A stretch of DNA of 45,768 nt from an uncultured Acidobacteriota bacterium (GCA_902826455.1 CADEEV010000036.1:1-45768); one strand, 5' to 3'. Shown: positions 2,469 through 42,424, counted from the stretch's first letter. The notes: generated by a model from the letters alone, not told the origin. Made by a program: numbers and translations.

Positions 2469-4709
2469 TTGACTCTCCGCGAAAACATCCTCGATCTGCT
2501 CCACAAGGACGGCAAGCCCGCTCCCATCCGCGAAGTCGCCCGGCGCCTCGGCCTCGAGCCTGAGGTCCGGCGCGAGTTCAAGCTCGCCCTGCGCCAGATG
2601 ATCGGCGACGGCGAGGTCGTGAAGATCCGCGGCACCCGCATCGGGTTGCCGGACCGCATGAACCTCGTGGCCGGCCGCCTCACCTGCAACCCCGCCGGCT
2701 ACGGGTTCGTGGCGCCCGAGACCCGCAAGGCCGGCCAGAAGGACGTCTACGTCTCCGCCCTCAACCTCAAGGAAGCGTTCCACGGCGACCGCGTCGTGGT
2801 GCGCGTCGAGCGCGTCACTCCCAAGGGTCCCGAGGGCCGCATCATCCGCGTCCTCGAGCGCGCCATGCAGCGTCTCGTCGGCCGCTACGAGGACGACGGC
2901 AAGTTCGGCGGCCGCGTGGTGCCGTTCGACAAGCGCGTGCTCCACGAGCTGTTCGTGCCCGCCGGCGAGGGCGGCGGCGCCAAGGCAGGCGACATGGTCT
3001 CGGCCGAGATCACGCGGCCGCCGTCGGCCACCCGCAATCCTCTCGGACGGGTTCTCGAGGTGCTGGGCCGGCTCGACGACCCCGGCGTCGACCTCAAGGT
3101 CGTGATGGCCAAGTTCGGTCTGCCGGACGCGTTCCCCGCCGAGGTCGAGGCCGAAGCGCAGGCCGTGCCGACGACGGTCCGGCCCGAGGACACGGCCGGC
3201 CGCACCGACTTCCGTCCCTGGCCCACGTGCACGGTCGACCCCGAAACCGCCCGCGATCACGACGACGCGATCAGCCTCGACCGGATGCCGAACGGGCACT
3301 GGCTGCTCGGCGTGCACATCGCCGACGTGGCCCACTACGTGCGCGAGGGCACGCCCCTCGACCAGGAAGCCTACCTGCGCGGCACCTCGGTGTACTTCCC
3401 CGATCGCGTCGTGCCGATGCTGCCCCACGCGCTGTCGAGCCACATCTGCAGCCTGATCGACGGCGAGGACCGGCTGACCCAGACGGTCGTCCTCGAGCTG
3501 GACGCCGAGGGGCGCGTCCTGCGCACCGAGTTCCACGACGGCGTCATCCGCAGCGCCGCCCGCATGTCCTACCAGCAGGTCCAGGCCATCGTCGACGGTG
3601 ACGGCGCGCTCCGCGAGCGCTTCGCGGCCCTCGTGCCCCTCTTCGAGCGCATGGACCAGCTCGCGAAGCTGATGCGGAAGCGCCGCTACGAGCGCGGCTC
3701 CCTCGACTTCGACCTGCCCGAGCCCAAGCTCGTCCTCGACGCGAGCGGAGCCATGACGGGGATCGTGGCGTCGGCGCGCCTCGACAGCATGCGCGCCATC
3801 GAGGAGTTCATGCTCGCCGCCAACGAGGCGGTCGCCGAGAAGCTGACCGACGCCGGGGCGCCGGCGCTGTTCCGGGTCCACGAGGCCCCCGACCTCGAGC
3901 GGGTCGAGCAGTTCTGCGACCTCGCGAAGTCCTTCGGGTACCGCGTCCCGACGAACCTCGAGAGCATCCGGCCCGAGGACTTCCAGAGCGTCCTGCGCCA
4001 GATCGCGGGCAAGCCCGAGGAACGCCTGATCTCGACGCTGCTGCTGCGCACCATGAAGCTCGCGCGCTACTTCGAGGAGAACCTGGGCCACTTCGGCCTG
4101 GCCACGAAGATGTACGCCCACTTCACGAGCCCGATCCGGCGCTATCCCGACCTCGTGGTGCATCGCGCCTTGCGCGCCGCGCGCCGGAAGAAGGACGCCG
4201 TGCGCGAGGCGCAGCTCCAGGAAGCCCTGCCCCAGATGGGCCTGCATCTCTCGGAGATGGAGCGCCGCGCCGACGAGGCCGAGCGCGAGCTCACCGAGTG
4301 GAAGAAGGTCCGTTTCATGGCGGACAAGCTGGGCGAGCGCTTCTCCGGCTACATCACGGGCGTGCAGAGCTTCGGCGTGTTCGTCGAGCTCGACGCGGTC
4401 TACGTCCAGGGTCTCGTCCACGTCTCGTCCATGTCCGACGACTACTACGCCTTCGACGACCGTGCCCACCAGCTGAAGGGCGGCAACACGAACAAGGTCT
4501 ATCGACTCGGCGACAGGATCGAAGTGCAGCTCGCCCGCGTGGATCTCGAGCGGCGCCAGCTCGACTTCGCCCTGGTAGGGCTCGCCCCGCAGTCCGGCCA
4601 GGCCCCCCGCAAGGGCGCGGCCGGACCTCGTCGCGGCCCGGCGCCCGAACGGCCGCGGCGCTCCTCGGGCAAGGCCGCCCCGGCGGCGAAGCCGCGCCGG
4701 AGGCGCTAA
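2469..4709 (+). CDS. rnr: Ribonuclease R (RNB-family 3'-5' exoribonuclease)
   Basis: A cytoplasmic hydrolytic 3'-5' exoribonuclease that degrades structured RNA. The 746 residues follow the family order: an N-terminal winged-helix segment (about 1-60, IREVARRLGL), cold-shock/OB domains (about 70-230, YGFVAPE...KDVYVS), an RNB core (about 250-590) with the metal-binding acidic motif DPETARDHDDAIS, and an S1 domain (about 620-700, GYITGVQSFGVFVELD...GLVHVSSM). The last 40 residues are Arg/Lys/Pro-rich, a basic tail common in RNase R and useful for RNA binding. It is slightly shorter than E. coli RNase R (813). The start is TTG at 2469, directly after an in-frame TGA; there is no clear ribosome-binding site. 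It precedes the glycan genes but is probably a separate unit. Confidence 0.96.
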   Translation: MTLRENILDLLHKDGKPAPIREVARRLGLEPEVRREFKLALRQMIGDGEVVKIRGTRIGLPDRMNLVAGRLTCNPAGYGFVAPETRKAGQKDVYVSALNLKEAFHGDRVVVRVERVTPKGPEGRIIRVLERAMQRLVGRYEDDGKFGGRVVPFDKRVLHELFVPAGEGGGAKAGDMVSAEITRPPSATRNPLGRVLEVLGRLDDPGVDLKVVMAKFGLPDAFPAEVEAEAQAVPTTVRPEDTAGRTDFRPWPTCTVDPETARDHDDAISLDRMPNGHWLLGVHIADVAHYVREGTPLDQEAYLRGTSVYFPDRVVPMLPHALSSHICSLIDGEDRLTQTVVLELDAEGRVLRTEFHDGVIRSAARMSYQQVQAIVDGDGALRERFAALVPLFERMDQLAKLMRKRRYERGSLDFDLPEPKLVLDASGAMTGIVASARLDSMRAIEEFMLAANEAVAEKLTDAGAPALFRVHEAPDLERVEQFCDLAKSFGYRVPTNLESIRPEDFQSVLRQIAGKPEERLISTLLLRTMKLARYFEENLGHFGLATKMYAHFTSPIRRYPDLVVHRALRAARRKKDAVREAQLQEALPQMGLHLSEMERRADEAERELTEWKKVRFMADKLGERFSGYITGVQSFGVFVELDAVYVQGLVHVSSMSDDYYAFDDRAHQLKGGNTNKVYRLGDRIEVQLARVDLERRQLDFALVGLAPQSGQAPRKGAAGPRRGPAPERPRRSSGKAAPAAKPRRRR

Positions 4710-33730: not shown

Positions 33731-35320
33731 GTGAACGTCGAAGAACTCATTTCCCTGCCCTGGGCGCGCCCGCGCGCCCGCGTCCGCCAGGAATCCGTCG
33801 TCCGGGTGCGCTACCGGCGGCGCCGCTCCGAGACCGAGGAGCAGGCGGCGCTCCTCCGGGAGTGGAGCCCGGTGGGCGCGCGCCTCGAGACCCGCGATCC
33901 TCTCGACCCCGGAGAGTGGATCCGGGTCGACGTTCCGGACGACGCCCCGGAGGAGCTACGGGCAGGCCGCCGGATCCCGGCCCGTGTCGTGAGCGCCTGC
34001 GCCGACGTCGATGCGCCGGGCCGCTACGCCTACGGCCTCGAATTCCGCACGGGCCTCCGGTCGTTCTTCTCCCAGCTCGTGTACGGAGCGATCCCGGTCC
34101 TCGCGATCCTGTTGTTCGCCGCGGGTGTCGGCCACGTGCTGCTGCTGCGCGAGTCGAACATCCACTACTTCTGGTACCGCCCGCTCGCGAACCTCTACAG
34201 CCTGCTGATCTCGATCTACATCCTGTCGCGCTTCGCCCTGAGCGCGTTCTACAAGCCGCCGCGCGACGTGGGCTACCGGCCCTCGATCTCGGTGATCATC
34301 GCGTGCAAGAACGAGGAGGCCTCGATCGGCCGCACGATCGACTGCGTGTACGCGGGGGACTATCCGCGCGAGCTGCTCCAGGTCGTCGCGATCAACGACG
34401 GCTCGACCGACGACACGCTGGCCGAGATGAACCGCGCGGCCGAGCGCCACGCGGGCCTCGAGGTGATCGACTTCGGCCGCAACCTGGGCAAGCGCCACGG
34501 CATGGCCGCGGGAGCCCGGGCGGCGACCGGCGACATCCTCGTGTACGTGGACTCCGACAGCTTCCTGCGCCGCGACACGCTGGCGCAGATCGCCCAGGGA
34601 TTCGCGAACCCCGACGTGGGGGCCGTGTGCGGCCACGCCTACGTGCACAACGCCCGCGCGAACTTCCTGACCCGGATGCAGGAGGTCCGGTACTACGTCG
34701 CGTTCCGGGTCGTGAAGGCGGCCGAGTCGCTGTTCGGGGCGGTCGCGTGCTGCTCGGGCTGCCTCGCCGCGTACCGGCGCAGCTACGTCATGGACATCCT
34801 CGACGTGTGGCTGAACCAGCGCTTCCTGGGCACGGAGGCCACCTTCGGGGACGACCGCAGCCTGACGAACTTCATGCTGAAGCGCCACCGCGTGATCTAC
34901 AACTCCCAGGCGATCTGCTCGACGATCGTTCCGGAGACCTACCGGCAGTTCTTCAAGCAGCAGCTGCGCTGGAAGAAGTCCTGGGTGCGCGAGACGCTGA
35001 TCGCGGGCCGCTTCATGTGGCGCCGCAATCCCATGGCCGCGTTCTTCTTCTACATGGGCGCCATCTTCCCGTTCCTGTCGCCGATCGTCGTGGCGAACGC
35101 GCTGTTCCTGCCCCTGTTCGGCGGCGGCGCCCTCTCGATGCTCTACATCTACGGCGCGACGCTCATGTCGGCGCTCTACGGGCTGTACTACCTGGGGCGC
35201 ATGCGCAACGGCCTCTGGGTGTACGGCGTCGCGTTCAGCTTCTTCTACATGTTCGTGCTGGTCTGGCAGACCTACTACGCCATGTTCACCGTCCAGAAGA
35301 ACCACTGGGGAACCCGCTGA
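33731..35320 (+). CDS. PilZ-like plus processive GT2 polysaccharide synthase (PgaC/HasA-like)
   Basis: The 529-residue inner-membrane synthase has an N-terminal PilZ-like region (about 10-115) with an RxxxR motif (R13/R17) but E44-W-S46-x-x-G49 in place of the usual D/NxSxxG. Helices at about 117-140 and 150-175 follow, then a GT2 domain: SVIIACKNEEAS, INDGSTDDT, YVDSDSFLRRD, GDDRSLTNFMLK and the QxxRW product-tunnel motif QQLRWKKSW. Three or more C-terminal helices would form the translocation channel. The pattern matches hyaluronan, chitin-oligosaccharide and PNAG synthases, so an N-acetylated beta-linked polymer is the best guess, supported by two deacetylase-containing genes downstream. 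It starts at GTG 33731. If the PilZ fold binds cyclic di-GMP, synthesis would be post-translationally controlled. Confidence 0.87.
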   Translation: MNVEELISLPWARPRARVRQESVVRVRYRRRRSETEEQAALLREWSPVGARLETRDPLDPGEWIRVDVPDDAPEELRAGRRIPARVVSACADVDAPGRYAYGLEFRTGLRSFFSQLVYGAIPVLAILLFAAGVGHVLLLRESNIHYFWYRPLANLYSLLISIYILSRFALSAFYKPPRDVGYRPSISVIIACKNEEASIGRTIDCVYAGDYPRELLQVVAINDGSTDDTLAEMNRAAERHAGLEVIDFGRNLGKRHGMAAGARAATGDILVYVDSDSFLRRDTLAQIAQGFANPDVGAVCGHAYVHNARANFLTRMQEVRYYVAFRVVKAAESLFGAVACCSGCLAAYRRSYVMDILDVWLNQRFLGTEATFGDDRSLTNFMLKRHRVIYNSQAICSTIVPETYRQFFKQQLRWKKSWVRETLIAGRFMWRRNPMAAFFFYMGAIFPFLSPIVVANALFLPLFGGGALSMLYIYGATLMSALYGLYYLGRMRNGLWVYGVAFSFFYMFVLVWQTYYAMFTVQKNHWGTR

Positions 35321-35322
35321 CG

Positions 35323-37221
35323 ATGGAGCGGGCGGGCACCGCCGAGGCCCTGAAGACACGGACGTTCGCCGCGGACGTGCTGGCCTGGGCGCTGCTCGCG
35401 GCCCTGGTCGGCGCCGGCGCCCTCGCGTGGCAGCGCTGGACCCACCGCACCGTGATCGCGGCGCCGGCCGCTGCCGGCGTCGTGGACCCGCGGCTCGTGG
35501 TGCTGGCGTACGACCGGGTCGTGTCGCGGCCCGACGGCCGCCACGTGGACACGGACCAGCTGCGCGGCCAGCTCGACGCCCTCGCGCGCCACGGCTACCA
35601 GGCCGTGAAGCTCGCGGCCGTCCAGCGCTTCCTGTCCGATCCGGGCGCGACGCTTCCCGCGAAGTCGGTCCTGCTCACGTTCGACCACGGCTATCTCTCG
35701 AGCCTCGACGCCGCCGATCCCGTGCTGCGCGAGCGGCGCTGGCCCGCGTTGATGTTCGTGATGACCGAGCGCCAGGAGCGCCGCGACCCGTTCTTCCTGT
35801 ACTGGCCGGGCCTCGCGGGCATGCTCGACAGCGGCATCTGGGAGATCGGCAGCCACGGGCACCAGGGTCACAACCCGGTCGTCGTCGACGCCCAGGGGCA
35901 GGAAGGGGCGTTCTTCCTGCGCCGCGAGTACCTGACGGCGGCCCGGCGCGAGGAGACCTGGGTCGAGTTCGCCGCGCGCGTCCGCCAGGACCACCTGAAG
36001 GCCCGCGAGCTCATCCTCGAGCGCCTGGGCCGGACTGCCGTCGCCTACGCGCCGCCCCTGCGCGACGTCGCCGTGACGAGCCTCGACCCCGAGGTCCACC
36101 GCGTGTACGAGGACGTCGTGCGCGAGCTGTACCCCGTGGCGTTCATCGACGACCTGTTCGGCGCCAACGAGCGCGCCGCGGAGCCGCACCACCTGAAGCG
36201 GCTCCGCGTGGGGGCGCGCTGGCAGGGCGAGGCTCTCGCCGCCTTCCTCGACGCCGCGATCGCTCCGCCGGTGACCGGGCCCCGCGCCGACGAGGAGCGG
36301 GAGCGTCTCTGGGTGCCCGCCACGGGCACCGCCCATCCGAGCGGCCCGGACCTCGTGGCCCGGGGTACCTCGCGGGCGGACCTGTGGCGCGTCGGGAGCC
36401 AGTGGACGGAGGATTTCACCCTCGAGGCCGACGTGACGATCGGCGGCGGCCAGTTCTGGGTGGTGCAGCAGTCGGCCGATCTCTCCGAGGAGTGGCGCTG
36501 GGGAGGCGACGAGCGCGGTACCCACCTCCAGAGGCGTCGGCCGGCCGAAGGCGTCGAGACCCTCGCGAGCTTCCCGGCGCGCGTCGAGCCCGGGCGCGTT
36601 CACCGCCTCGAGCTGCGGCGCCGCGGCACGGGCCTCTGGGTGGTGTGGGATGGCCAACCCGTGGCCGAGCGGCCCACCTGGCTGCCCGACCGCTTCCGCG
36701 GCAACGTGGGCCTCGTGTGCTGGGGCCGCGAGGGAGCGGCCGAGTTCCGCGTGCGGCGCCTGCGGTTCGGGCGCGCCCCGTACCTCACGCGCGTCGTCGC
36801 GGGCGAGCCGAGCGAAGGCGAGGTGCAGGCGGCGATCGACGTCGCGCCCACGTTGAGCGCCCTGTCGCCCCTCTGGCTGGACGTCGGCGCGGGCACCCTG
36901 CGCGAGCGTCCGCTCGACCGGGACCTGCTCTCCATCCTCTCGCGGCGTTACGGCTGGGAGATCCTGCCCACCGCGCGCGTCGAGGGCCCGCCGGGCGATC
37001 GCCTGCGGGCGCGCGTCGACCGCGCCCTCGGCCGGGCGCGCGAGGCGGGGTTCGGCGGGCTGCGCCTCGAGTGGGGGGCGCCGTCCGGGTCGGACGCGAG
37101 CGTCGCGACGGTGACCGCCGAGTTCGAGCGTCTCGCGGCCCGGCGCGGGTTGCGGGTCGTGGTCGAGCGGTCGGCGCCGCCGGCCGACACGCGCGTGGCG
37201 GATGGAGGTCTCGAACCATGA
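35323..37221 (+). CDS. Membrane-anchored PgaB-type polysaccharide deacetylase with lectin-like and GH18-like segments
   Basis: The 632-residue protein has an N-terminal membrane anchor (about 17-36, VLAWALLAALVGAGALAW), so the rest is periplasmic. Residues about 55-315 form a CE4/NodB-like deacetylase: TFDHG (D121, H122) replaces TFDDG, and SHGHQGH (H178 and H183, five apart) matches the spacing of PgaB metal histidines. The Asp-to-His change at the metal position may alter metal choice or activity. Residues about 353-486 look like a concanavalin-type jelly roll (FTLEADVTIGGGQFWVVQQ, FRGNVGLVCWG). Residues about 505-630 (LSALSPLWLDVGAGTL, AREAGFGGLRLEWG) resemble half a GH18 barrel with a degraded catalytic motif. 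The layout parallels PgaB, which joins a deacetylase to a glycosidase-like domain. Two bases separate it from the synthase stop. Confidence 0.8.
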   Translation: MERAGTAEALKTRTFAADVLAWALLAALVGAGALAWQRWTHRTVIAAPAAAGVVDPRLVVLAYDRVVSRPDGRHVDTDQLRGQLDALARHGYQAVKLAAVQRFLSDPGATLPAKSVLLTFDHGYLSSLDAADPVLRERRWPALMFVMTERQERRDPFFLYWPGLAGMLDSGIWEIGSHGHQGHNPVVVDAQGQEGAFFLRREYLTAARREETWVEFAARVRQDHLKARELILERLGRTAVAYAPPLRDVAVTSLDPEVHRVYEDVVRELYPVAFIDDLFGANERAAEPHHLKRLRVGARWQGEALAAFLDAAIAPPVTGPRADEERERLWVPATGTAHPSGPDLVARGTSRADLWRVGSQWTEDFTLEADVTIGGGQFWVVQQSADLSEEWRWGGDERGTHLQRRRPAEGVETLASFPARVEPGRVHRLELRRRGTGLWVVWDGQPVAERPTWLPDRFRGNVGLVCWGREGAAEFRVRRLRFGRAPYLTRVVAGEPSEGEVQAAIDVAPTLSALSPLWLDVGAGTLRERPLDRDLLSILSRRYGWEILPTARVEGPPGDRLRARVDRALGRAREAGFGGLRLEWGAPSGSDASVATVTAEFERLAARRGLRVVVERSAPPADTRVADGGLEP

Positions 37222-40200
37222 GAAGCAAGCTGGCCGGTCTCGTGCTCCTCCAGGCGGCGTTCCTCGTGGCGCCGGCCCACGCGGGCTCTCCAGGGCAGGC
37301 CGCCCTCGATCGCGGCACGGACCTCTACAAGACCGGGCGCTACGGCGACGCGATCGTGGCCTTCCAGGAGGCGACGCGCCTCGACCCGGGCCTGTTGCGA
37401 GCCTGGGAGAACCTGGGCTGGGCGTACCACCGCAGCGGCCATCACGACGAGGCCCTCGCCACGTGGAGTCGCGTCCTCAAGGTGGAGCCGCGCCACACGC
37501 GGCTGCTGAACGAGATCGCCGCCGTGCAGCTCGGCCTCGGTCACTGGGCGGAGGCGGCCGGCTTCCTCGAGCGCAGCCTGGCCGCCGACGAGGGCCAGCC
37601 CCGCATCCGGCTGAGGCTGGCCGAGACCCTCGAGAAGGCGGGTCGTCTCGACGACGCCGGGACTGCCTATCGCGCCGTCGCCCAGCACAACCCTCGGGAG
37701 CTGGGACCGACGCTGCGGCTCGCGGAGTTCCTCGAGCGGACGGGGGATCGCAGCGGCGCCCTGAAGGCGCTGCGCGAGGCCCGGCCCCGGCTCCGCGCCT
37801 ACGACCACATCCTCGCGGTGCGGGTCGCACGGCTCGTCGCCTGGCGTGGCGACGAGGCCTATCGCGCGGGGGACTACAAGGCGGCCCTCGCCGCCTACGA
37901 CGAGGCCGTGACCGCCGCTCCCCGCGTCGGCCAGTACCGGATCAATCGCGGCTGGGCGCAACGCCAGCTCGGCGCCGTGGCCGCGGCCGCCGCCGACTGG
38001 GAGGTGGCCCTCGAGCTCGACCCCGGCCGCAGCGCGCTCTACCGCCATATTGCCGACGCGGCCCTCGAGCAGGAGGACCTCGACACCGCCGCGGCCATGT
38101 ACGGCCGCGCCTGGGCCGAGGCCGAGCGTCAGCCCAGCGTCCCCTATCGCCTCGCGGCGATCGCGATCGAGGAGGGTCACGACGACGACGCGCGGCACTG
38201 GCTGGGCGAGCTCTTCGCGCTCCCCGAAGCGGACGCGCAATGGTCGATGCGCGTCGCGGCGCTCTTCGACGAGGCCGAGCGGCCGGCGGTCGGCCTGGAG
38301 TTCTTCGAGAGCCGGCTCGGCGCGTCCGCGCGGCCCGAGCAGACCCGCCGCGCCCTGGCGCGCCTGCATGCTCACGCGGGCAGCGTCGCGTCCAAGGCGG
38401 GGGAGACGGACGCCGCGCGGCGCGAGCTCGAGGCGGCGGTCGCCCTCGACCCGCAGAGCGCGGCCGCGCTGCGCGACCTCGGCTGGATCTACTGGACCCA
38501 GCACCTGTGGGACGACTGCGCCCGGGTCTGGCGCGCGTACGCGGCCGCCCATCCCGACGACGCCCAGGCCCACAACCTGCTCTCGCGCGTGTCCCTGGAG
38601 CGCAAGGACTACGCGACCGCGATCGCGGCGGCCCGGGAGAGCCTGCGCCTCCAGCCCGACCAGCCCTCCCAGCGCCTGCGCCTCGCGAAGGCCCTCTTCT
38701 GGGGCGGCCAGTTCGTCGAGGGCCGGGACCTGGCCGAGGCCGTGGCCCGGGACAATCCCGACGACGTCGCCTCCCAGGTGCTGTGGGGCGAGCTGCTCAT
38801 GCAATATCACGACTTCGCCCGCGGCAAGACGCAGTGGCGTCGCGTGCTCGACATGGGCGTGCGCACGCCGCGCGCCGAGTTCTACTGGGTGCAGTCGCTC
38901 TACGAGCTCGGGGAGTACGACACGGCCCTCGCGGAGGCCCGTCGTCTGGTCGCCGAAGACGGCCCGAAGCAGCCGCTCCTCCAGTTCCTGGCCGACGATG
39001 CCGTGCGCCTCGGACAGGGCGCCGATGCGATCCGCTGGTACCAGGCCCTGACGGCGGGCTTTCCCGAGCGCCTGCCGGCCTGGCTCGAGCTGGCGCGGCT
39101 GCAGCAGGAAGCGGGCGATCTGGCCGCGGCCCGGGCCACCCTCGAGGCGGCGGCGAGCCATCACGCCGCTCGCGTCGACGTCGCCCTCGCCGTCGCAGAT
39201 CTCGATCGTCGTGCCGGCCGCGCCGAGGCGGCCCGCACGTCCCTCGCCGCTCTCGCGCGCGAGCATCCGCGACAGCGCGAGGTCTTCCAGGGACGCGTGC
39301 GCACGGCGCTCGAGACCGGCCGCGAGGCCGAGGCCCTGGCGGTGCTGCGGGACGGCGAAGACGCGTTCCTCAAGCCCTATGAGGCCCGCCTCCAGGAGGC
39401 CCGCATCCGCGTCGCCATGCACGACGAGGACCGGGCCCAGCAGGCGCTGGCCTTGGTCAGCACGCCGGCTCCCGATGCCGGCTACGTGCCGATCCTGCTC
39501 TACCACGGCATCGGGGACCACGAGCGCAGCGCGAGCCTTCCCCTGGCCCGCTTCGACTCCCAGATGGCGGCGCTCCACGCGCAGGGCTACACCACCCTCA
39601 CGGTGGCGGATCTCGCGCGCGTCGCGAACGGCGAGGCGTCGCTGCCCGCGCGGCCGATCCTCGTGACCTTCGACGACGCGCGCCTCGACTCCTTCGAGCG
39701 CGCCGACCCGGTCCTCGCGCGGTACGGGATGAAGGCCACGATGTTCGTTCCGACCGGCCGCATCCGGGACCGCCATCCGTTCTTCGCCGACTGGTCGCGC
39801 ATCGAGGCGTTCGCCGCGAGCGGCCGCTGGGACATCCAGAGCCACGGCCATTTCGCCCACGACCCGATCGCCCTCGACGCCGACCAGGACCAGGGGAGCT
39901 TCCTCGTGAACCGGCAGTGGCTGCCGGAGGAGGCGCGCCTCGAGACCCACGACGAGTACGTCGCGCGCCTGTCGGGAGACTACGAGCGCAGCATCCGGGA
40001 GATCGAGAGCCGCTTCCCGTCGGTGCGGGTCGTGGGCTACGCGTTCCCCTTCTCCGAGTCGGGCCAGGAGAGCGTCGGCAACGAGCCGGACTCCGCGGAT
40101 ACGAACCAGGCCCAGCTGGAGCGCCTGTTCCGCTTCGGGTTCGTGCAGGACCAGAACGGCTACAACGAGGTCCGGCCCCACGCGACGTTGCGGCTGCTGC

Positions 40201-41363
40201 GACGCTTCTCGGTGCCCCGCGACTTCGACGGCGAGGCGTTGCTGCTCCACCTCGCCGTCCACAACCCCCGCGCGGAGGCCCTGGCGGAGAGCGCCCGCGT
40301 CCACTACTGGGCGGGGGAGTACGCGCGCTCGCGCTCGATCTGGGAGGGTCTCGCGAGCGACGAGCCGCGGCTTCAGGCGGAGGCGTCCTACTACCTGGCC
40401 TCGATCCAGTACGAGCGGGGCCGCTACGACGCTGCCCGCCACCACCTCGAGCTGGCCGAGAGCCTGGGCGCCGCGCGCCTCGCGGCCGACCCCGATCTCG
40501 CGCGCCGCATCCGCTTCGAAGGCGTGCGCGTCGCGCCGCGCGCCGATCTCACCCGCGACTCCGACGGCCGCGAGACCGAGCGCGCCGGCCTCGAGCTCCG
40601 GGCCGCCGCCCTCGGCCCCGTGGAGGCCGCCTTCGGCGTCGGCCACGTGGCGCTGCGCGAGGACGGCTTCGCGTCCCTCGAGGGCCGCGAGCTCGAGGCC
40701 TCGGCGCGCGTCGGGCCCTTCGGCCCCTTCGCCCTCGACGGCCGCGCCTGGCAGCGCGCCCTCGACGGCGCCGGCGACAGCCTGAGCTTCGCCGCCGGCC
40801 TGGGCTTCGAGAGCGATCGCTTCGAGCTGCGCCTCCACGGCGGGCGCCAGGACATCGACACGCTGCAGGCCCGGGCCGCCGGCATCCAGGCCGAGACCTG
40901 GGGCGCCCACACCGGACTGCGCGTGACGCGCGGGCTCCTCGCCACCCTGGACGCCGCCTACGACCGGCGCGACGACGGCAACGAGCGGCGCGACGTGATC
41001 GGCCGGCTCACCCTGCGTCCGGCCTGGGGCAAGGCCGTGGGGCTCGGCCTCGGCGCGTCGGCCGGCTGGAGCGACACCCTCGTCCAGAGCCCGCTCTACT
41101 ACAGCCCCGAGAACGTGCGCTGGGCTCGCGGCACGCTGTCGATGGCGCGGCGCTGGGGCGGCGGCTGGTCCGCGGAAGCCGACCTCGGCTACGGCCTGGC
41201 GAGGGACGCGCTTCGCGGAGAGCGCCCGACCTTCCACGTGGCGGCCCGGACGGGCCAGCCCTGGGGGCGCAACCTCGGGTCGTTCGTCGAGGGGCGCTAC
41301 AGCAGCTCGCCCGGCTACTCGGGCTGGGGCGTCGGCGCGTCGCTCGAGATCCGGGTCTGGTAA
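37218..41363 (+). CDS. TPR - polysaccharide deacetylase - outer-membrane beta-barrel fusion (PgaA-like)
   Basis: This 1381-residue protein begins with a signal peptide (LVLLQAAFLVAPAHA, cleavage after residue 23). Residues about 28-745 are TPR-like 34-residue repeats (LRAWENLGWAYHRSGHHDEALATW and many others), as in the periplasmic domains of PgaA, PelB and BcsC. Residues about 755-1000 are a second deacetylase: YVPILLYHGIG, TFDDA (D819, D820), SHGHFAH (H876 and H881) and GYAFPFSESG, with the full catalytic set. More TPR-like helices follow at about 1010-1070. Residues about 1090-1381 are alternating amphipathic beta strands ending in RVW, a C-terminal aromatic as required for outer-membrane barrel assembly. 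PgaA and PelB contain TPR plus barrel only; I know of no characterised example with a deacetylase in between. The ATG overlaps the preceding stop (ATGA). Confidence 0.88.
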   Translation: MRSKLAGLVLLQAAFLVAPAHAGSPGQAALDRGTDLYKTGRYGDAIVAFQEATRLDPGLLRAWENLGWAYHRSGHHDEALATWSRVLKVEPRHTRLLNEIAAVQLGLGHWAEAAGFLERSLAADEGQPRIRLRLAETLEKAGRLDDAGTAYRAVAQHNPRELGPTLRLAEFLERTGDRSGALKALREARPRLRAYDHILAVRVARLVAWRGDEAYRAGDYKAALAAYDEAVTAAPRVGQYRINRGWAQRQLGAVAAAAADWEVALELDPGRSALYRHIADAALEQEDLDTAAAMYGRAWAEAERQPSVPYRLAAIAIEEGHDDDARHWLGELFALPEADAQWSMRVAALFDEAERPAVGLEFFESRLGASARPEQTRRALARLHAHAGSVASKAGETDAARRELEAAVALDPQSAAALRDLGWIYWTQHLWDDCARVWRAYAAAHPDDAQAHNLLSRVSLERKDYATAIAAARESLRLQPDQPSQRLRLAKALFWGGQFVEGRDLAEAVARDNPDDVASQVLWGELLMQYHDFARGKTQWRRVLDMGVRTPRAEFYWVQSLYELGEYDTALAEARRLVAEDGPKQPLLQFLADDAVRLGQGADAIRWYQALTAGFPERLPAWLELARLQQEAGDLAAARATLEAAASHHAARVDVALAVADLDRRAGRAEAARTSLAALAREHPRQREVFQGRVRTALETGREAEALAVLRDGEDAFLKPYEARLQEARIRVAMHDEDRAQQALALVSTPAPDAGYVPILLYHGIGDHERSASLPLARFDSQMAALHAQGYTTLTVADLARVANGEASLPARPILVTFDDARLDSFERADPVLARYGMKATMFVPTGRIRDRHPFFADWSRIEAFAASGRWDIQSHGHFAHDPIALDADQDQGSFLVNRQWLPEEARLETHDEYVARLSGDYERSIREIESRFPSVRVVGYAFPFSESGQESVGNEPDSADTNQAQLERLFRFGFVQDQNGYNEVRPHATLRLLRRFSVPRDFDGEALLLHLAVHNPRAEALAESARVHYWAGEYARSRSIWEGLASDEPRLQAEASYYLASIQYERGRYDAARHHLELAESLGAARLAADPDLARRIRFEGVRVAPRADLTRDSDGRETERAGLELRAAALGPVEAAFGVGHVALREDGFASLEGRELEASARVGPFGPFALDGRAWQRALDGAGDSLSFAAGLGFESDRFELRLHGGRQDIDTLQARAAGIQAETWGAHTGLRVTRGLLATLDAAYDRRDDGNERRDVIGRLTLRPAWGKAVGLGLGASAGWSDTLVQSPLYYSPENVRWARGTLSMARRWGGGWSAEADLGYGLARDALRGERPTFHVAARTGQPWGRNLGSFVEGRYSSSPGYSGWGVGASLEIRVW

Positions 41364-42424
41364 GCCTTGCGCGCCCGCAAGCCCGGCAGGATCTCCGGAT
41401 CCTCGCGTCCCAGGCTCCAGAGCACGACGCTGTCGTACCCCAGCTCCTGCAGCCAGGCGACCTTGTCGAGAAGGCTGGCCGCGTCCTCGTAGTAGACCGT
41501 GTGGTCTCCGTCCGGCGCGTCGTAGTGGAAGAAGGCCGAGCTTCCGTCGGGGTCTCGCGCGACGTCGCCCTTGCGCGCCGCGAGGAGGCCCGGGAGATCG
41601 GCGTGCTGCAGCTCCTTGAAGCCCCGGGGGCCCCAGTCCATGGCGCCCATCTTCAACACGGGCACGACGCGCCCGGGAGGGCACTGGCTGGCGGCGTAGG
41701 CGAGCACCGAGGCGATCCAGCTCCGGGTGGCGAGGGGGCCGGGGGGAGTCCGCGCATTGTGGAGGTTGTAGAGCATGATCTGCAGGCGATCCGCGCTGCC
41801 GCAGAGCTGGGCCCAGTCCGCCGCACCCGGGCCCACCGAACGGCTCTCCTGGCTCTTGGGCTGCACCGTGACCGACAGCCGCAGGTCGCGCGCCGACAGG
41901 TCCGCCTCGAGCTCGCGCACGAACGCGCTGAAGGCGTCGCGGTCGGCGGGCTGGAGGTTCTCGTAGTCGACGTCGAGGCCCGAGACGCCGTGACCCATGG
42001 CCAGCTCCACGAGAGCGCGGCGATGCGCGGCGCGCTTGCCGGGGTCGGCGAGGAGCTCGTGGATCACGGTCGAGTCCTTGAGGCTGGCCTTGCCGCGGGG
42101 ATCGCGCCGGTCGTTGACGGCGGTCAGCCACGTGGCGACGCCCTCGGCCCGCAGCCGGCCCGCGACCCGGCCGGCGTCGAGGTCGGCGCGCGACACGCCG
42201 GGGCGTCCGTCCGCATCGAGATCCGCCAGGAACAGGAACGCCTGGTCCACGGCGCCGGGCGTTCCGTCGACGCGCTGGAGGCCGTTCGCGAAATCCCAGT
42301 AGGTGACCCACGCGCCCAGGCTCCGCAGCGGCCGGGGCTCGGCGTCGACCTCGGGGGAGGCGCAGGACGAGAGCAGCGTCAGGGCGAGGCACACCGAGGT
42401 CGCGGAGAAGAGGGGGGAGTGCAC
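41315..42424 (-). CDS. GH18-type glycoside hydrolase lipoprotein
   Basis: The 369-residue protein has a lipoprotein signal peptide with lipobox LSSC (Cys21) and is probably held in the outer membrane. The rest is a TIM-barrel-like GH18 fold related to chitinase/spore-germination hydrolases: GAWVTYWDFANGL, VATWLTAVND, then GHGVSGLDVDYENLQ with the D151-x-D153-x-E155 catalytic motif, RLSVTVQPK, LQIMLYNLHN (the M-x-Y/D-type strand) and a final LGYDSVVLWSLGRED. The first Asp of the fuller DxxDxDxE motif is Ser here. It would cleave beta-linked N-acetylhexosamine polymers, and its position after the exopolysaccharide operon suggests trimming of that product. The 3' end overlaps the barrel gene by 49 bases, antisense. 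Start GTG 42424. Confidence 0.83.
   Translation of the reverse strand: MHSPLFSATSVCLALTLLSSCASPEVDAEPRPLRSLGAWVTYWDFANGLQRVDGTPGAVDQAFLFLADLDADGRPGVSRADLDAGRVAGRLRAEGVATWLTAVNDRRDPRGKASLKDSTVIHELLADPGKRAAHRRALVELAMGHGVSGLDVDYENLQPADRDAFSAFVRELEADLSARDLRLSVTVQPKSQESRSVGPGAADWAQLCGSADRLQIMLYNLHNARTPPGPLATRSWIASVLAYAASQCPPGRVVPVLKMGAMDWGPRGFKELQHADLPGLLAARKGDVARDPDGSSAFFHYDAPDGDHTVYYEDAASLLDKVAWLQELGYDSVVLWSLGREDPEILPGLRARKAYQTRISSDAPTPQPE

Follow-up and report, generated by a model that had tools for sequence, protein, structure and literature searches.

A TPR array, a PgaB-type CE4 deacetylase domain and an outer-membrane barrel joined in one protein: a putative exopolysaccharide exporter from Acidobacteriota and other bacteria

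We analysed a stretch of 45,768 nucleotides from an uncultured Acidobacteriota bacterium (GCA_902826455.1 CADEEV010000036.1:1-45768), called the window here, and focused on one open reading frame (ORF) at 37218-41363 (+). Its 1381-residue product carries a CE4-type deacetylase domain within a putative TPR-barrel exporter. An earlier note made from the sequence alone had proposed such a fusion, and our coordinates and length match it exactly. The gene is the third of a tight run that consists of a GT2 synthase, a second CE4-like protein (D1) and the fusion, with a GH18 gene lying tail to tail. The start ATG of the fusion shares bases with the stop codon that closes the preceding gene (ATGA). 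The features of the fusion, with the evidence for each, are as follows.

37218..41363 (+): TPR-CE4-barrel fusion protein, 1381 amino acids (Pfam, AlphaFold (AF2) model, fold comparison)
37218..37283 (+): probable Sec signal peptide, residues 1-22 (MRSKLAGLVLLQAAFLVAPAHA before a G; sequence read by eye)
37287..39485 (+): TPR array, residues 24-756 (Pfam TPR families; AF2 helices at 560-750)
39486..40232 (+): CE4 / PgaB-type deacetylase domain, residues 757-1005 (hmmsearch envelope, Polysacc_deac_1, PDB profile, fold)
39672..39677 (+): catalytic base and metal ligand D819-D820, in TFDDAR (PgaB alignment)
39843..39860 (+): metal-ligand motif H876-xxxx-H881 (PgaB alignment)
40266..40514 (+): porin-proximal TPR-like helices, residues 1017-1099 (AF2 model)
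40527..41360 (+): 16-stranded outer-membrane beta-barrel, residues 1104-1381 (AF2 and fold comparison to PgaA, BcsC and PelB)

Pfam found many TPR families across residues 30-710, in line with the roughly 700 residues of repeats noted earlier, and placed PF01522 (Polysacc_deac_1) above its cut-off at residues 810-945 (whole-protein E 5.6e-10), while NCBIfam PgaB-type models matched residues 759-933. A profile built from the window protein and one orthologue and compared with solved structures matched BpsB (5bu6, 4e-18) and E. coli PgaB. Residues 560-1381 were then modelled with AF2 from six natural sequences (mean predicted local distance difference test (pLDDT) 82.4, predicted template modelling score (pTM) 0.61). 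The model revealed, in order, TPR helices, a CE4 fold, about seven helices and 16 antiparallel strands (1104-1379), and the protein ends in ...EIRVW. Its CE4 part (model residues 194-459) superposed on PgaB 4f9d with a Z of 21.3 (root-mean-square deviation 2.8, 246 aligned residues) and on an Aggregatibacter PgaB relative with a Z of 21.8. The barrel superposed on PgaA 4y25 (Z 24.3, root-mean-square deviation 2.7, 273 aligned), BcsC 6tzk (Z 23.0) and PelB 9h80 (Z 21.8). Furthermore, H763, D819, D820, H876 and H881 aligned with the first-motif histidine, catalytic base and metal ligands of PgaB, H763 corresponding to PgaB H55.

The earlier note had placed the aspartate pair and the two metal-ligand histidines at these positions, the deacetylase fold at residues 755-1000, further TPR-like helices behind it, and a barrel after residue 1090 ending in RVW. 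All of this was borne out, both folds being predicted with good confidence. Collectively, Pfam, the AF2 model and fold comparison agreed that one ORF holds all the parts, and they confirm a real fusion of TPRs, a PgaB-type CE4 domain, a short helical linker and a 16-strand barrel. Because the folds are those of a PgaA-class barrel and a PgaB CE4 domain, the two domains match two types of protein that are separate in characterised systems.

The window has a GC content of 72.7%, and in such a GC-rich genome long spurious ORFs are common, including on the opposite strand. The fusion frame showed a coding-type pattern, with GC at the three codon positions of 0.78/0.52/0.94. An antisense ORF of 1814 amino acids runs through the fusion (36948-42392, -), and homology backed the fusion frame only. 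The antisense ORF has an inverted pattern of codon-position GC; it is a shadow ORF and could mislead annotation.

We found other proteins with the same domain order, for which the earlier note had suggested a search, at a total of 14 fusion loci in 12 genomes from the window's phylum, Gammaproteobacteria and Elusimicrobia. Many of them are contigs of metagenome-assembled genomes (MAGs), and their taxon names are bin names. When each species was represented by a single genome, fusions turned up in two MAGs of Gammaproteobacteria, L046 (36% identical along the entire protein) and L047, in a Methylococcaceae MAG (L049/L093) and in Elusimicrobia (L048/L092, with an in-frame stop close to its end, and L050). 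Searching whole genomes brought in four more from the window's phylum (G119, G492, G248 and G102). From the Elusimicrobia phylum it yielded G994, G1114 with two copies, and another copy in G462. The fusion of G492, a single-contig genome, has the same domain order in one frame, and home-built barrel and CE4 profiles detected both domains in the relatives, including the divergent L040 and L041. In even samples, the fusion system was found in 5 of 396 genomes of the window's phylum (one of the five was matched through D1, its fusion being found separately), 1 of 369 of the class of L046 and 4 of 199 of the Elusimicrobia phylum. The fusion is therefore rare (about 0.3-2% of sampled genomes) and widely scattered. 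No relative was found among viral contigs, and the plasmid collection yielded only lone CE4 proteins and PgaB, with no fused protein. In a tree, a single weakly supported branch (58/86) had all 11 of the fused CE4 domains tested on the same side, and an approximately unbiased (AU) test on the nine less divergent fusions gave p 0.47. On these sequence comparisons, a single origin of the fusion is possible.

The neighbouring synthase, D1 and GH18 genes, which did not feature in the earlier note, are as follows.

33731..35320 (+): GT2 polysaccharide synthase with an N-terminal PilZ-like region, NodC/HAS (hyaluronan synthase)/PgaC-like, QxxRW (Pfam, NCBIfam, orthologue alignment)
35323..37221 (+): D1, with an N-terminal transmembrane helix, degenerate CE4 domain, CBM66-like beta-sandwich and C-terminal alpha/beta region (Pfam, AF2, Foldseek, motif table)
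41315..42424 (-): GH18 glycoside hydrolase, lipobox-like LSSC near the N-terminus, DxDxE (Pfam Glyco_hydro_18)

The synthase matched Glycos_transf_2 (5e-28) and Chitin_synth_2 (3e-22) and was 57-61% identical to the synthases of L046 and L039. Pfam found PilZ in the orthologues; the window copy gave no Pfam PilZ match, and its N-terminus aligns to theirs. Solved hyaluronan synthases ranked first among PDB chains, and among its closest annotated relatives on plasmids are NodC proteins and a GT2 beside a nucleotide-sugar dehydrogenase, which by its gene content looks like a hyaluronan synthase locus. A tree of GT2 proteins had long branches and gave no decision between the NodC/HAS and PgaC groups. 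Upstream of the synthase, Rfam found no cyclic di-GMP riboswitch and no other RNA. D1 was modelled at a mean pLDDT of 65, and Foldseek matched it to PgaB/IcaB and CBM66. The GH18 gene is convergent with the fusion and overlaps its 3′ end; it matched PF00704 (1e-19, 71.6 bits) with the DxDxE motif as GLDVDYE, the lipobox being read by eye.

In 11 loci the synthase, D1 and fusion genes lie next to one another, and GH18 adjoins the fusion in seven; GH18 is a neighbour in L039, L046, L048/L092, L040, L090 and L108, and also in a Paenibacillus locus (L080). In the AT-rich genome of L040 (13447-14415, -, and 8814-13430, +), the CE4 domains of D1 and of the fusion are both degenerate, but an additional CE4 gene, which has the motifs FDDGY and HTYHH, lies between the fusion and GH18. 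An Elusimicrobia synthase (L091, 2276-4753) has about 325 additional N-terminal residues with no Pfam match. Elsewhere in the window, the region 11000-33500 is dense in glycosyltransferases (GT4, GT2, GtrA-type) and holds an MBOAT acyltransferase and a DPM-like GT2 followed by DUF2304; it is probably a separate surface-glycan cluster.

We compared the catalytic residues of the two CE4 domains across the loci. The full set was kept in 11 of the 14 fusions; one more carries a single His-to-Gln change and two are degenerate. Among the D1 proteins paired with a fusion it was kept in none (0/11), and although the alignments of the most diverged D1 proteins are approximate, the DD...H....H pattern is plainly missing. 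In the window D1, the H763 equivalent is D and the D820 equivalent is H, and most other D1 proteins are worse. In L051 and L052, which are binned as Patescibacteria and have no fusion, the CE4 domain keeps H, D, D and H, and only the last His is absent. Retention in the fusions of three groups, set against loss in every D1, suggests that selection has kept the fused domain active. Since D1 has lost its residues while the fusion keeps them, deacetylation appears to have moved to the exporter; on these alignments, the simplest reading is that catalysis would have passed from an inner-membrane protein onto the exporter in outer-membrane-bearing lineages.

Taken together, we give a probability of roughly three in four to the reading that the locus serves synthase-dependent exopolysaccharide secretion, with a periplasmic deacetylase covalently built into the outer-membrane exporter. 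From what was computed (architecture, folds, CE4 residues, conserved locus and D1 residue loss), we infer the activity, substrate, direction of transport, polymer identity and roles of D1 and GH18 as follows. The GT2 synthase would polymerise a glycan containing N-acetylglucosamine (GlcNAc) across the inner membrane, probably regulated via its PilZ-like region. D1, anchored in the inner membrane and bearing a degraded CE4 domain and a carbohydrate-binding-like sandwich, would probably receive or guide the nascent chain, which would then pass along the TPR superhelix of the fusion. The CE4 domain, flanked by the long TPR array and the porin-proximal helices, would strip some N-acetyl groups, and the polymer would leave through the 16-strand barrel. 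GH18 would trim or release chains, a role like that of the hydrolase regions in PgaB, PelA or BcsZ.

The coupling of modification to export that the earlier note had suggested agrees with published contacts between separate proteins. In PgaA, the TPRs next to the porin (221-515) form a binding site for the deacetylase domain of PgaB, whose activity increases 2.3-fold on binding (PMC9384988). TPRs 9-14 of PelB bind PelA, and a model of that system leads the polymer from the TPRs via the deacetylase into the porin (PMC12022489). The fused CE4 domain, which follows the long TPR array and precedes the final helices before the barrel, occupies a place equivalent to these contact sites. By this analogy, we infer that the polymer would be deacetylated on the exporter just before it enters the barrel, which would make the coupling obligatory, at a ratio of 1:1.

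Some observations weigh against a deacetylating exporter. L040 and L041 are without catalytic residues in both D1 and the fused CE4 domain, so deacetylation is not a trait shared by all members of the family. The AF2 model comes from six sequences only, and at its pTM of 0.61 the placement of CE4 relative to the barrel is unreliable. In addition, lumen-facing residues, counted crudely, showed no excess of negative charge (20 K/R, 15 D/E), so that charge does not support a conduit for a cationic polymer.

As the synthase is NodC-like and accompanied by GH18, the polymer may be chitin- or chitosan-like, poly-N-acetylglucosamine (PNAG) or another GlcNAc polymer being the alternatives. A more far-reaching version of the proposal, to which we give somewhat less than an even chance, is that the locus represents a distinct, undescribed class of synthase-dependent machine for the synthesis and export of a beta-1,4-GlcNAc chitin- or chitosan-like polymer, in which the inner-membrane deacetylase has become a pseudoenzyme, deacetylation has shifted to the outer-membrane channel as a fused domain, and monoderms have a two- or three-gene version lacking the channel.

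The system could instead be a divergent pga (PNAG) system with a pgaA-pgaB fusion, which we consider unlikely. The CE4 domain and barrel are closest by fold to PgaB and PgaA, and both systems have a TPR and 16-strand barrel exporter, a CE4 deacetylase and contact between the two. The synthase also matched the PgaC model (TIGR03937, 143 bits, cut-off 422.3), but it scored higher as NodC (TIGR04242, 190 bits, cut-off 550). The fusion reached 34.6 bits with the PgaA equivalog (TIGR03939, cut-off 366.65) and 70 bits with the PgaB equivalog, which spans deacetylase and glycoside hydrolase (TIGR03938, cut-off 321.9; D1, 94 bits). With scores well short of the thresholds for PgaA, PgaB and PgaC, the locus is not a pga operon by the curated models, and 'PgaB-like' applies to the domain only. 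PgaA and PgaB are separate proteins in E. coli, whereas here CE4 lies inside the exporter; PgaB has a C-terminal glycoside hydrolase domain, which is absent here, and a separate GH18 gene is present. The pga synthase consists of PgaC with PgaD, while the present locus adds the degenerate CE4 protein D1, and the contiguous ORFs of 33731-41363 leave no spare gene for pgaD, although the genome was not scanned with a PgaD model.

It is also conceivable, though rather improbable, that the fused CE4 domain serves only as a binding or gating module, with the same architecture, a structural function and no deacetylation at the exporter. The L040 and L041 fusions, which keep architecture and locus despite degenerate CE4 residues, would fit this, but conservation of the catalytic and metal residues in most fusions, set against their loss from D1, argues for an active enzyme. 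That an assembly or frame artefact joined separate genes, as the spurious opposite-strand ORFs of a high-GC genome might suggest, has a negligible chance, being ruled out by the same order in one frame at 14 independent loci in 12 genomes, one of them a single contig (G492), and by the coding-type GC pattern.

PgaA-PgaB and PelB-PelA link modification to export as contacts of separate proteins, PgaA and PelB using their TPRs to bind and to stimulate the deacetylase; here the contact is hard-wired. A natural fusion ties both activities in a single polypeptide and allows one to ask whether deacetylation must occur at the channel mouth and to seek the path of the polymer. It also provides gene-fusion (Rosetta-stone) evidence that exporter and deacetylase partners work as one unit. 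The same fused gene in a conserved cluster from at least three bacterial groups marks out an uncharacterised exopolysaccharide locus with Gram-negative and apparently Gram-positive forms.

The earlier note had taken the architecture to be undescribed or rarely described, and this still stands: no open-access paper was found that describes a deacetylase-exporter fusion or gives it as standard, which is weak evidence of absence, and the excerpted passages of a survey of exopolysaccharide operons contain none (PMC7112194). Those passages report GT-PgaB fusions, PgaB clades without pgaA and a BcsZ-BcsC fusion.

Among known systems, PelA and PelB resemble the present one in that the deacetylase acts on the exporter TPRs (PMC12022489) and in the barrel (Z 21.8). 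They differ in being separate proteins, with the CE21 deacetylase of PelA fused to a GH166 hydrolase, a PelC ring and another synthase complex. The apparently Gram-positive form is found on a plasmid of Paenibacillus cellulositrophicus (NZ_CP045296.1, 5713-10519; L080), where a PilZ-GT2 synthase (40% identity over 91%), a degenerate CE4 protein and GH18 are consecutive. A TPR-barrel fusion is missing there, in keeping with the lack of an outer membrane. A further CE4 gene with a TFDD motif lies upstream at 2889-4367. According to the same survey excerpts (PMC7112194), GT-PgaB N-terminal fusions and PgaB clades are alike in being Gram-negative deacetylases with non-standard fusions and operons without recognisable pgaA, but the deacetylase of GT-PgaB is joined to an inner-membrane glycosyltransferase and not to an outer-membrane channel. 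BcsC shares the barrel (Z 23.0), and in Zymomonas BcsZC a periplasmic enzyme is fused to the exporter (PMC7112194, in the same passages), that enzyme being a hydrolase instead of a deacetylase and working with a cellulose synthase complex. Within the excerpted survey, the BcsZ-BcsC and GT-PgaB fusions are the nearest precedents, and the system described here is a new variant of synthase-dependent exopolysaccharide secretion.

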